DNA of 34,850 nucleotides from Flavobacteriales bacterium (GTDB lineage: Bacteria; Bacteroidota; Bacteroidia; Flavobacteriales; Flavobacteriaceae), in assembly GCA_027065715.1 (NCBI GenBank), contig JAMONO010000086.1, forward strand, positions 1 through 34,850, written 5' to 3'. The notes under the pieces were generated by a model that was given only the letters and a program-made list of their open reading frames with translations, was not told the DNA's origin and made no database searches. A program made the translations under genes and the position numbers. Position 1 is the first letter of the stretch; each line of letters begins with the position of its first letter. This document shows positions 3,668 to 32,908 of this stretch, in pieces.

Positions 3668-4738
3668 TTAAAATAATTTATATCCTAAATTCAACCCTAA
3701 TCCTCCGTATGTTGATATATTATAATTTAATTGTATAAACAAACGTTCAAAGTCGGCACGAACTCCCATATCAAATTTTGTTCGGGTAAATGTACCGGAC
3801 AAGTCCAACGGATCATCGACATCTTCGGCAACTACACTTCCTATACCAACCGGGTCGGCTATATAGACGGGGTATCTGCCTGTAACTTGTATATTTGAGC
3901 TTCCTACATTGTATCCGCCTCCGGCAAAAATCGTAAAGTGTTCTCCTATTTGATAGTCGGCATAAGCACCAAATTGAATACTTGTAAAAAAAGTATTTAA
4001 GGCTTGGTTATCGTAAGGTCCTGTTTGATTACCGGTTGGTGTAACGGGACTGTAAACACCATTGGGTTGCACGTTGAGGTCGGCATGTCCGTACAAATAA
4101 GAGGCACCGGCTTGCAAACTGATGCCAAAATCCGAATCACGCAATGATTTTATAAACATCGCCATATCTTGTTGAAAGGCAAGCCCAAACATACCAACCT
4201 TTAAGTCGGAGGTAGGCACTTGCACGTAGGGTATAAAATGAGCGGTCAAATTGGTATATTTCAGTCGATAAGTCGCACTTAAAAAGGGAAGCGGCAAAGC
4301 CGATTTTTGTCCGCCCCCCGGCGTATCAAATTCTATCAAAGGACGTCCCAATAAGTCTTTTTGTTTGGAAACCAAAGTAATAACTTGCAACGAGTCTCCA
4401 AAAACCGTGGGAGTTATGTGCCGGGTCGGATCTTTGGGCTCTAAATTTTGCAATCCTATTTTATCGACATCAAAACTTAAATCTTCGGAAGGAACACTTA
4501 CATAAGCCAATTTTACCGAAAGTAACAAATGACGTTTTTGCTCTTTTTTAATTTTGGTGTAACTTACATCGGACAAACCGTAAACAATGGCTTTATTAAT
4601 GGGGGTGATATAAGCATTGACCAGTTTGGCTCCGTCGTCCAAACCGGCTTGAATAAGTTTGGCGGTATTAATAACTTCTTGTCCGTAACCGTATAAACTT
4701 GCCCATAAAATGAAGATTAATAAAAATTTTTTTTTCAT
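3668..4738 (-). CDS. DUF6588 family outer-membrane protein
   Basis: 356 residues with a signal peptide (about 1-19, ending LYGYGQ). Many amphipathic strands rich in Y/F/G follow, and a terminal aromatic residue (F356) is typical of Bacteroidota outer-membrane barrels. The layout (EVINTAKLIQAGLDDGAKL near the mature N-terminus, and a conserved glycine-rich GAYADYQIGEHFTIFAGGGYN region) fits DUF6588. The function is unknown. It has its own -7 box and stands alone between rpmB and another envelope gene on the same strand. Confidence 0.75.
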   Translation of the reverse strand: MKKKFLLIFILWASLYGYGQEVINTAKLIQAGLDDGAKLVNAYITPINKAIVYGLSDVSYTKIKKEQKRHLLLSVKLAYVSVPSEDLSFDVDKIGLQNLEPKDPTRHITPTVFGDSLQVITLVSKQKDLLGRPLIEFDTPGGGQKSALPLPFLSATYRLKYTNLTAHFIPYVQVPTSDLKVGMFGLAFQQDMAMFIKSLRDSDFGISLQAGASYLYGHADLNVQPNGVYSPVTPTGNQTGPYDNQALNTFFTSIQFGAYADYQIGEHFTIFAGGGYNVGSSNIQVTGRYPVYIADPVGIGSVVAEDVDDPLDLSGTFTRTKFDMGVRADFERLFIQLNYNISTYGGLGLNLGYKLF

Positions 4739-4763
4739 AATACGATTATTTATGATGCAATTA

Positions 4764-4771
4764 CAAAATTA
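4764..4771 (-). promoter_or_regulatory. -7 promoter box TAATTTTG
   Basis: TAnnTTTG match on the minus strand, 25 bp ahead of the DUF6588 ATG. Confidence 0.5.
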
Positions 4772-4819
4772 ATAATTATATAATGGTTTAGCGTTACAAA
4801 AGTTTCAAAAACAACTCGA

Positions 4820-5584
4820 TTAAAAATAATATTTAATTCCAATATGCAAACTGTTGCGATATTGTGAAACAAGTTTGTAATTGTTGATACCGGTTTGAAA
4901 CCGCCAGTGTCCCGAAAAATAGTTTATGTTAAATTGGCTGTTTCTAATGGTAACCGGTTCAAAATAGCTCCATTTGATCAAACCGTCCACGCTGATTTGA
5001 TTTCCAAAAAACAATTCGGTTCCTATATCGTAAACAAATCCGCCGGTATTGTTTGGGGCTTCCGAAAACATTATGCCAATTCCATACCATAAGTCAAATT
5101 TTTTGGTTCTGATACGGTGGTAATTCAATACAAATCCGGTTTGGGATAAAAAATAGCGGTTGTCGGGTATGCGTTGTGGCAGATGCACAAAACTTCCGGT
5201 GAAGTCGAGACGTTTGGCAAGGCGTAATTGGGCTTGCCAATGTCCGAAAAAATATTGTTGTTGGTCGAAAGCGATGTTGCCGCTTATTTCCAAACGAAAC
5301 GGAACCGATTCGTTTTGGTAGGTATAATTTCCTTCGTTTTTGTCAAAATACGGATACGGTGTCAGGGCGGCATGGTGCATGGGAGTATTACGTTCCCAAT
5401 AGGTTTCAAACAAAATACCGTAAGTTATTTCCGAAAAAAACCAATATACGATGTCGGTCAAAGGATTATAGTTTTCGGTTTGTCTTGTTTGAACCGTAGT
5501 GATTAGCGGTTTTGTTTGTAAATTATTTTGCGAAAAAATCGATTGAACAACTAATAATAACAGAAGTAAAGCAATTTTTTTCAT
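4820..5584 (-). CDS. Probable outer-membrane beta-barrel protein, unknown family
   Basis: 254 residues that I cannot assign to a named family. An N-terminal signal peptide (about 1-18, MKKIALLLLLLVVQSIFSQ) is clear. The mature part alternates polar and aromatic residues (FGHWQAQLRLAKRLDF, FRFQTGINNYKL-like strands) and ends in KYYF, a typical barrel C-terminus. This suggests a small outer-membrane barrel of perhaps ten or twelve strands. It is on the same strand as the DUF6588 gene downstream, 81 bp away. It may be an independent unit, since that gene has its own -7 box. Confidence 0.6.
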   Translation of the reverse strand: MKKIALLLLLLVVQSIFSQNNLQTKPLITTVQTRQTENYNPLTDIVYWFFSEITYGILFETYWERNTPMHHAALTPYPYFDKNEGNYTYQNESVPFRLEISGNIAFDQQQYFFGHWQAQLRLAKRLDFTGSFVHLPQRIPDNRYFLSQTGFVLNYHRIRTKKFDLWYGIGIMFSEAPNNTGGFVYDIGTELFFGNQISVDGLIKWSYFEPVTIRNSQFNINYFSGHWRFQTGINNYKLVSQYRNSLHIGIKYYF

Positions 5585-31093: not shown

Positions 31094-31948
31094 ATGAATT
31101 TTTGGAATATAGATGCAGAAATAAGTTTTTTCATAGAAGCATTAAAAAACTTTGCTTCGCCTGAACAATTATTTTATCATTTGAAAGACGGATATTTAGC
31201 TTATGTTCCCAAAGGAAAAAGTACTGAAAGACAAACTCTACAAAGTAGAAATTCGTTAATAGGACAATATACGGAAAAATGGAGTAAAGATTTCTTTAAA
31301 CCAATAGCCGAAAGTTTAGGTTTATTTGCCGTTAATGGTGTTGTTTGTCCAGAACTTGGATTAACTAACCGAAGTGATGCCGATCTTGCATTTTGCACAA
31401 CAAATAAAACAAAACAAAAAGCCGAAAATATTAAATTACTCTTTGAAATAAAAATGAGTATTGTAAATAATTACAAATATGATAGCGGTAAAATAGAGTA
31501 TATCGGTGATTACAAAACACATAAAGAAAATCCTTCATTACTTCGCTCTGATTCAATGTTAAAAGCAATCGAAAAATCAATAAATATCAGAGTTTCAGGA
31601 AAAGATTCAAGAAAAATTCCTATAATAATTCTTGGAAATAGCCCGATTACAAAAAGCTATAAACAAAAAGTCGATTTTTTGAAGCAAGCAGGAATTATTC
31701 AAGGTTTTATATCAGTATATCCAAACCCAACCGATAATTTTATTAAAAAAACAGCAAAAAACGGTTTTTAAACATTTGATAATTATGATAATTTAAAAAA
31801 GTTTATTACAGATTTGACTAAATCCGATTTAAACTTTTTTTCATCAATGTTGCCCAAGAAAAAATTAGGACAATTTATAACATTATCAGCACAAGAAAAA
31901 GATGATATTGCAAAGGCTGAAAGATTTTTAACTCTAATAAATCAATAA
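31094..31948 (+). pseudogene. Restriction-endonuclease-like gene with in-frame stop
   Basis: The frame begins MNFWNIDAEISFFIEALKNF and runs 225 codons to TAA 31769. It then continues in the same frame for 58 further sense codons (TFDNYDNLKKFITDLTKSDL onwards) to TAA 31946. This indicates a nonsense change, for example CAA to TAA. A PD-(D/E)xK-like core is visible: SDADLAF (D95, D97) and LLFEIKMS (E118, K120). With the methyltransferase start that follows 6 bp later, the gene reads as the nuclease of a type II restriction-modification pair, here probably inactive. The 225-residue product could still be made, and I recognise no exact family. Confidence 0.65.
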
Positions 31949-31954
31949 AAAATA

Positions 31955-32107
31955 ATGAGAAATACAATAATAACAGGAACAGGAACAGGCACTAAAACAA
32001 GTTCATTTGGAACAAATGGACGAATAAATCACGATTCAAGCAAATTTTATGATTCAAAATTATATAAAGAGTTTAACAATAATAAAAAAAATCCCGATGC
32101 ACGGTAA
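31955..32107 (+). pseudogene. Truncated DNA methyltransferase N-terminus
   Basis: A 50-codon frame starting MRNTIITGTGTG, then SSFGTNGRINHDSSKFYDSK. The segment GRxxHDSSKFYxSKLY is the kind of opening seen in some TSPPY-type amino-methyltransferases. Coding similarity stops at about codon 40, where the sequence runs into the tandem array at 32091; the last codons and the TAA come from the array. No catalytic motif remains. It starts 6 bp after the broken nuclease gene, so the pair looks like a dead restriction-modification unit cut at the tRNA-Gln locus. Confidence 0.55.
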
Positions 32108-32371
32108 CATCAGGATTTTATATAAACTGCCGGCCTACTAGGGCTTCCCGAAGTATTTCGGGATAAACTTCTCGCCCTAGAAAAAGTTTAAACAATAACA
32201 AAAATCCCGATGCACGGTAACATCAGGATTTTATATAAACTGCCGGCCTACTAGGGCTTCCCGAAGTATTTCGGGATAAACTTCTCGCCCTAGAAAAAGT
32301 TTAAACAATAACAAAAATCCCGATGCACGGTAACATCAGGATTTTATATAAACTGCTGGCCTACTAGGGCT
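32091..32371. repeat. 113-bp tandem array derived from tRNA-Gln tail
   Basis: Two identical 113-bp units (32091-32203, 32204-32316) and a 55-bp third part (32317-32371) that merges into the tRNA-Gln gene. On the minus strand each unit holds the tRNA 3' strand with its trailer and a terminator (stem AAAATCC-GATG/CATC-GGATTTT, e.g. 32088-32119). It also holds a hairpin CTAGGGC/GCCCTAG with an inner CCCGAA/TTCGGG (32138-32180). That outer stem extends the T-arm stem CTAGG/CCTAG of the tRNA; the T-loop is replaced by the inner hairpin. I see no repeat-spacer structure, so this is not CRISPR. Confidence 0.88.
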
Positions 32372-32428
32372 CGAACCTAGACTCTTCTGAACCAAAATCA
32401 GACGTGTTGCCAGTTACACCATAGGCCA
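32356..32428 (-). tRNA. tRNA-Gln (UUG)
   Basis: A 73-nt cloverleaf on the minus strand: acceptor TGGCCTA/TAGGCCA, anticodon stem TCTGA/TCAGA with loop TTTTGGT (anticodon TTG), T-arm CTAGG-TTCGAGC-CCTAG, discriminator G, CCA not encoded. A full promoter is at 32448-32477. A small hairpin ACCACTT/AAGTGGT (32431-32446) lies in the leader. Its 3' tail is repeated in the downstream tandem array. Confidence 0.95.
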
Positions 32429-32519: not shown

Positions 32520-32908
32520 AAGTTTAATAAAAATTACTGTTAGTTGATAGCGGCAATCTATTGTTAACCAAGATTTTATTGATGCAGAATTGTTCGTTAC
32601 TCCTTTCGGGATTAATTGCGCCATCAATTGAAGTTGGTTGATAGCTGTCAGATGACAGGTATTGGATACAGGTACTTAGGACAAATGTCATTACGAAGGA
32701 GTGCAACGACTGAGGAATCTTTTACCAAAGAGAAAAAGATTTCTCACTGCGTTCGAAATGACACTGTTTATTACGTAACGATTTGATTAACAATACGTTG
32801 TTATTGCGAGGTGCGAGACATGAGCGCCGTGGCAATCTTTGGTTTTCGGGTTGGTTTATTGATTTAGATTCTTCTCTTGGCTTCACTTTGCTCCGTTCAG
32901 AATAATAC
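32520..32908 (-). repeat. Intergenic mosaic repeat, copy C
   Basis: Reverse complement of 1-385 with few differences (nine over the 183 bases compared base by base). Differences cluster at the outer end near 32870-32908, where an indel lies inside the GAAGTGAAG-like module. It occupies the gap between tRNA-Gln and the HIT gene. The remaining stretch 32909-33063 shows no gene or clear structure. Confidence 0.85.

Follow-up and report, generated by a model that had tools for sequence, protein, structure and literature searches.

Genomes of Bacteroidia carry a real, widespread, and previously unannotated class of tRNA-linked elements, in which the 3' tail of a tRNA is repeated downstream of its gene behind a rebuilt T-arm, an almost invariant 11-nt motif (GAGAAGTTTAT), and a hairpin replacing the T-loop. 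Such units are located just downstream of at least 12 tRNA isotypes. Their anatomy, tRNA association, and covariation are well supported, and we infer their transcription and molecular role from sequence. There is about an even chance that the units are structured spacer RNAs linked to tRNAs, of the type represented by the rtT RNA of E. coli. The main rival to this explanation is a selfish, tRNA-targeting hairpin.

The window, that is, the whole stretch of 34,850 nt analyzed here, comes from a Flavobacteriales bacterium (GCA_027065715.1, contig JAMONO010000086.1, positions 1-34,850 of the forward strand), and the array described below lies on its minus strand. An intact tRNA-Gln (UUG) gene is located at 32355..32428 (ARAGORN; Rfam RF00005, 62.2 bits), and its T-loop reads TTCGAGC, so that position 59 is G and position 60 is C. 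It is followed by a trailer and first spacer (32294..32354), whose sequence recurs in each unit and which contains an intrinsic-terminator-like hairpin (AAAATCCTGATG...CATCGGGATTTTT, 32313-32345). Both window units then read, on the minus strand, CTAGGGC-GAGAAGTTTAT-CCCGAAATACTTCGGG-AA-GCCCTAGTAGGCCGGC-trailer-terminator. In unit 1, the 5' strand of the rebuilt T-stem, CTAGGGC (32287..32293), pairs with tail positions 59-65, as indicated by folding and family-wide covariation; the motif GAGAAGTTTAT (32276..32286) is near-invariant in 91 first units, and the inner hairpin CCCGAAATACTTCGGG (32260..32275), recognized by folding, is directly followed by AA (32258-32259). The segment GCCCTAGTAGGCCGGC (32242..32257) copies the tRNA-Gln 3' tail, starting at position 59, with one A to G change against the tRNA, and precedes the repeated trailer and terminator (32181..32241), delimited by repeat comparison. 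Unit 2 comprises a rebuilt T-arm (CTAGGGC-GAGAAGTTTAT-hairpin-AA, 32145..32180) that is the same as in unit 1, a tRNA-Gln tail copy (32129..32144), and a trailer and terminator (32082..32128) forming the distal array edge, which adjoins a truncated methyltransferase gene.

ARAGORN, Rfam, and TRF (period of 113 bp, 2.6 copies, 98% match, 32081-32371) bear out the sequence-only reading of this region as a tRNA-Gln with its trailer and terminator, followed by two 113-bp units. The same reading had called the units identical, which holds for the stem, hairpin, tail, and terminator (32293-32200 is identical to the next copy) but not for the last bases, since 2 of 113 bases differ when the units are set in register (32303-32191 vs 32190-32078), both past the terminator. 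The stem CTAGGGC/GCCCTAG and the hairpin CCCGAA/TTCGGG that it placed at the site of the T-loop are both there, and a single unit folds far better than its shuffled versions (z -5.0; whole array, z -8.0). The one acceptor-base substitution it had noted, A to G, was also found and is the sole change between the unit tails and the tRNA-Gln tail (32357 vs 32244/32131). Missing from that reading was GAGAAGTTTAT, located between stem and hairpin, which is the invariant core of a large family. For a 24-nt piece of the unit, 0 chance matches are expected in the window, and a search of the bacterium's own genome (2.2 Mb) revealed no copy beyond the two window units.

The surroundings of the array also have features of their own. 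On the plus strand, a possible restriction-endonuclease gene (31094-31948) with an in-frame TAA at 31769 has no Pfam or NCBIfam match, and the neighboring type II DNA methyltransferase gene (31955-32080; PADLOC MTase_II, E 2.9e-9 across the first 38 residues) is cut off at the array end. Together, the two genes abutting the array are apparently a broken restriction-modification pair. Just upstream of tRNA-Gln, a REPIN-like inverted pair (CATTTCGAACGCAGTGAGAAATCTTT ... AAAGATTCCTCAGTCGTTGCACTCCTTCGTAATGACA) occupies 32700-32790 of the minus strand.

The unit is not local debris but is widespread in Bacteroidia. A DNA search of relatives, which the sequence-only reading had proposed, showed that tRNA-Gln is followed by the same arrangement in further species and genera, and a search with the short motif located the same core behind other tRNAs. 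A covariance model, proposed likewise and built here from 24 units, detected units, within the window's family, in 118 of 298 genomes representing 94 of 187 genera (E 1e-3 or better), with up to 14 units per genome and arrays of 109-bp period. Class-wide, 51 of 396 genomes carry it (E 1e-4); 48 of these belong to 18 families other than that of the window. Among the 17 loci examined outside that family, 15 have a tRNA at most 161 nt upstream together with a copy of its tail, and the phylum sample added tRNA-Arg(CCU) as a host tRNA. Carriers of the unit include Gillisia limnaea, Christiangramia sabulilitoris, and Winogradskyella strains. Some units lie inside transcription units, namely tRNA-Thr-Tyr-Gly-Thr and tRNA-Trp-secE. 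No Rfam family matches the units in the window or at six other unit loci, and no description of the Bacteroidia units was found in open-licence papers.

The sequence of each unit follows the local tRNA. We sampled 150 units in 100 fetched loci; a same-strand upstream tRNA (Thr-UGU, Gln, Trp, Lys, Met, Asn, Gly, Ile, Leu, or His) is present for 141, and in 137 of these 141 the unit's own upstream tRNA gives a better tail match than any other isotype. Most units of the family lie approximately 45-60 nt from their tRNA. A GTDB scan using the motif alone, with the tail unused, yielded 101 copies in 80 loci, of which 82 have a same-strand tRNA within 800 bp upstream and 77 match the tail of that tRNA best; the remaining copies are mostly found at contig ends or are displaced units still bearing tRNA tails, and most full units are located at tRNA tails in sense orientation. 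The sequence-only reading had reasoned that a unit scattered far from tRNA genes would be ordinary repeat debris; such scattering was looked for in the bacterium's own genome and in the GTDB motif scan and was not found. When tails were sought first, up to 320 nt downstream, 145 of the 152 tRNA tail copies contained the motif, a count that is not fully independent, because many loci had been fetched on account of the motif, and degraded forms occur in 3 of the other 7. The same tail-first search found no tail copy behind tRNA-Tyr in 41 cases and two behind tRNA-Thr-GGU in 41 cases, neither with the motif.

A few units are displaced, parted from their tRNA by genes. At loci L122 (approximately 4076-4450) and L178 (approximately 3950-5110), GIY-YIG nuclease genes lie between tRNA-Asn and the unit; they precede a 3' half of tRNA-Asn, beginning close to the anticodon, in which a different hairpin replaces part of the arm, an arrangement that looks like homing-type insertion into tRNA-Asn. 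As a general driver, a GIY-YIG homing gene was rejected, since only 6 of 100 loci have such ORFs abutting tRNA-Asn or tRNA-Met. At L278 (505-2225), an IrrE-domain gene and a DUF4411/PIN gene (toxin-antitoxin-like) separate tRNA-Leu(UAG) from its tail unit. Furthermore, L178, L035, L145, L122, and L150 contain second hairpins exactly between the T-stem and the acceptor 3' strand of the tail copies.

Throughout the family, the unit consists of the reverse complement of tRNA positions 59-62 or beyond, GAGAAGTTTAT, a hairpin, RA, and the tRNA from position 59 to its end, the copied tail comprising the last ~16-18 nt of the upstream tRNA. The base directly before GAGAAG (base -1) pairs with tRNA position 59 in all 85 distinct cases (C-G 73, U-G 7, U-A 5), and base -2 pairs with position 60 in 84 of 85 (G-C 45, A-U 21, G-U 15, U-A 3). 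Position 61 is paired in 125 of 135 and position 62 in 109 of 135, and further out pairing drops towards chance. Since a normal T-arm leaves positions 59 and 60 unpaired, the stem extension is newly made rather than inherited. Base -1 changes with position 59, being U where tRNA-His and tRNA-Gly have A59, and not with C56, which excludes the 5' CGAG as a leftover of the T-loop. In 128 distinct aligned units, whose alignment was fitted to the covariance model and therefore leans towards structure, 95.6% of cells pair vs 82.0% in shuffles, with 139 double changes vs 43; sliding the partner by one column leaves pairing at no more than 62%. G-U pairs are common (25 at the closing pair of stem 2, 18 and 9 in stem 1), which favors RNA rather than DNA pairing, and judging from these alignments RNA-level pairing appears to be under selection. 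Among the 91 first units, the motif is 0.96-1.00 identical between genera vs 0.47-0.70 for the flanking spacers, an upper estimate because the search favors conserved motifs, and the copied tails are 0.94-0.99 identical to the tRNA.

Of the three ideas offered by the sequence-only reading, namely an integration scar, a small structured RNA, and a decoy for tRNA-processing or recombinase enzymes, the evidence best supports the small structured RNA, produced along with the tRNA: its structural part agrees with the conserved, covarying, G-U-rich stem and the invariant motif, and its making with the tRNA would be consistent with units located inside transcription units. We count in favor of a structured spacer RNA the tail identity, the motif scan, the tail-first test, the covariation, the G-U pairs, and the conservation of the motif relative to the spacers, as well as the fact that E. 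coli rtT, annotated as an sRNA, has the same architecture. In the proposed mechanism, the unit would be transcribed with its tRNA, within the operon in the case of tRNA-Thr and tRNA-Trp and via terminator read-through in the window. The new 5' strand, complementary to positions 59 to 62-65, would rebuild and lengthen the T-stem, capping GAGAAGTTTAT and the hairpin. The unit would thereby fold on its own and lock away the T-stem 3' strand of the copied tail, preventing competition with the genuine tail of the tRNA. The constant internal loop (GAGAAGUUUAU/RA) is a putative binding or cutting site of a cellular RNA-processing or RNA-binding factor. Against a structured spacer RNA we count the patchy presence of the unit, the dispersed AGTTTAT-tagged copies of the inner hairpin, and the position of both window units beyond a terminator, which makes their expression dependent on read-through.

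Copy number bears on this question as well and would, in the proposed mechanism, shift by recombination between ~75-bp direct repeats (tail, trailer, terminator). Units are present in 7 of the 13 genomes of the window's genus, a patchiness indicating that the element is dispensable, and the comparison of unit number in relatives that had been suggested from the sequence gave 0, 1, and 2 units within this one genus. One genome with zero units (G002) keeps a remnant, AGTAGGAGAGAAGTTT, where another (G008) has one unit and a related remnant; this pattern fits gain and loss by recombination between direct repeats. The units could also be a neutral by-product, that is, a tandem duplication of the tRNA 3' end, spread and homogenized by recombination, with a hairpin that arose once and was tolerated as a tail insulator. 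The variable copy number, including arrays of up to 7 copies, the partial repeats such as GGGCGAGAA at array ends, and the near-identity of tails to the tRNA, as gene conversion would give, agree with such an origin. However, the 11-nt motif and compensatory stem changes persist over the whole class, and units behind 12 or more isotypes share one exact junction, at position 59, and we regard a neutral origin as quite unlikely.

The closest known counterpart of the units is the E. coli RtT RNA (rttR), encoded by the 178-bp tyrT repeats (Rfam RF00391). Both are tandem repeats downstream of a tRNA, each ending in that tRNA's 3' tail from position 59 (137 of 141 sampled units and the window tails), and in both a new complementary 5' strand (GGGGAAGGAT/ATCCTTCCCC in RtT) lengthens the T-stem from position 59 while hairpins replace the T-loop. 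The rttR/tyrT plan, GGGGAAGGAT-GAGAAG...GAGTA-ATCCTTCCCCCACCACCA, even has GAGAA after the stem, although this resemblance may be due to chance, since the inserts at lysT and argQZYV lack GAGAA. The insert sequence, length, and period differ (178 vs 113 bp), and RtT is found behind tRNA-Tyr, whereas the Bacteroidia units occupy 12 or more isotypes with one constant motif. At the gathering score, RF00391, which matches E. coli tyrT at 133-138 bits, has no match in the window or at six other unit loci; the Bacteroidia units are therefore not RtT by membership. Processing of the tRNA reportedly releases the rtT RNA, for which a link to the stringent response has also been reported; to our knowledge, its role has never been settled, although it has been known for decades.

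Similar repeats occur in the spacers of E. coli MG1655 lysT (780400-782200) and argQZYV (2816500-2819500) (loci L411 and L413), which contain tail copies of tRNA-Lys and tRNA-Arg(ACG) preceded by GGAT-AACGTTGC..GCAACGGCCCG.AGGGCGAG...-ATCC. As in the Bacteroidia units, the T-stem is lengthened from position 59 and one hairpin insert is common to different tRNAs; unlike in those units, the insert is unrelated to GAGAAGTTTAT and its hairpin, and the repeats lie between tRNA genes of one operon. Neither repeat is annotated as a feature in the MG1655 record. Almost every E. coli genome has the repeat of the tRNA-Lys type, with no annotated feature listed under the best matches. Small RNAs derived from stable RNA transcripts provide a further precedent: rrA/rrB/rrF (PMC8144298) and 3'ETS-leuZ (PMC6191717) derive from transcript spacers by read-through or processing of stable RNA operons, and the precedent includes read-through of a first terminator. 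In the parts of these reports available to us, neither a copied tail nor a remodelled T-arm is described.

Tail copies downstream of tRNAs are a classic sign of integration, and the units could be scars of integrative elements, i.e., attR sites left by tyrosine integrases, as the sequence-only reading had also considered. Attachment scars share with the units the direct repeat of the tRNA 3' end, and integrases and islands do occur at these tRNAs, but the true scars found there are plain tRNA 3' parts without a hairpin, located inside the unit. In genome G158, a ~48-kb insertion at tRNA-Met, led by a phage-type integrase gene, ends in a plain 43-nt tRNA 3' part that has its own terminator, and the unit comes next, outside the insertion. 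The order of a plain tRNA 3' part followed by a unit recurs in L337, L363, L305, and L367, and plain tails lie directly inside displaced units in Salinimicrobium sediminis, Aequorivita lipolytica (with an integrase), a Flavobacteriaceae, and a Fluviicola MAG; the hairpin motif was never seen in these attR sites. A scar would be identical to the tRNA from the crossover to the 3' end and separated from it by an integrase gene or island, whereas in the units the motif and hairpin replace the T-loop side, and the window array has no adjoining integrase and a spacer of ~60 bp without an ORF between tRNA-Gln and the first unit. The coexistence of plain attR and unit at G158 and the four other loci leads us to reject the integrase-scar reading as very improbable; integrases use these tRNAs, and the unit is a separate resident feature. 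A repeat of the tRNA 3' end alone is thus no proof of an integration scar. Integron attC sites were also considered and rejected, as the R''/R' boxes RYYYAAC and GTTRRRY are absent on inspection of the window sequence.

The units might instead be selfish, palindromic REP-like DNA elements that an HUH/Y1 transposase or some other recombinase mobilizes in single-stranded form, with the 5' strand guiding them to the T-arm 3' strand of the target tRNA, a possibility that we consider less probable than a structured spacer RNA. In IS200/IS605 elements, guide sequences bind the cleavage sites by base pairing, and in the units a stem strand is complementary to the target tail. One motif and hairpin behind many isotypes in a single genome, together with patchy gain and loss, also speak for such an element, and the AGTTTAT-tagged copies of the same inner hairpin dispersed in complete genomes fit mobile DNA as well. 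On the other hand, no autonomous element was found, G-U pairs are common, and the tail copies are those of the local tRNA, so that an element simply transposing from one isotype to another would disrupt the tRNA. Y1_Tnp (PF01797) was found neither in the window's genome (G000, E 1e-5) nor in several unit-rich genomes, and over 298 genomes its association with units is weak (56/62/58/122; odds ratio 1.9; p 0.01, uncorrected for kinship); a Y1/RAYT transposase as a required partner was therefore rejected.

REP/REPIN sequences with their RAYT resemble the units in combining a short tag with a hairpin and in the dispersed AGTTTAT-hairpin copies of some genomes. By contrast, full units are mostly found at tRNA tails, in sense orientation, and require no transposase. 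Instead of being dispersed away from tRNAs, the units number only two in the window's genome, where no cognate Y1 transposase was detected at E 1e-5, and 82 of the 101 motif copies of the GTDB scan are near tRNAs. A generic REP was rejected, as the hairpin core TGAGCGNAGTCGA occurs 59 times in units vs 4 times elsewhere in 0.86 Mb of fetched loci, although dispersed tagged copies exist elsewhere. Hairpin repeats tagged with AGTTTAT or AATTTAT were observed away from tRNAs at L246, L259, L263, L270, L272, and L273, and some dispersed tagged hairpins are centered in short inverted repeats of local sequence. A viral origin was also rejected, with 0 viral matches to a window 24-mer and viral matches to a 16-mer lacking tRNA tails. 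In a further variant, which we consider unlikely, a tRNA-programmed mobile hairpin would carry a 5' guide complementary to positions 59-63 of its target and colonize any tRNA by swapping this guide of 4-7 nt, the tail being rebuilt each time. Under this variant, the same process would also account for E. coli tyrT, lysT, and argQZYV, either independently or as very old members.

If the units are structured spacer RNAs, the 3' spacers of tRNAs would carry a conserved, unannotated RNA layer across a whole class of bacteria, behind a dozen isotypes and absent from Rfam. The isolated rtT RNA of E. coli would then be placed into a general class, whose function may be tested in two phyla.
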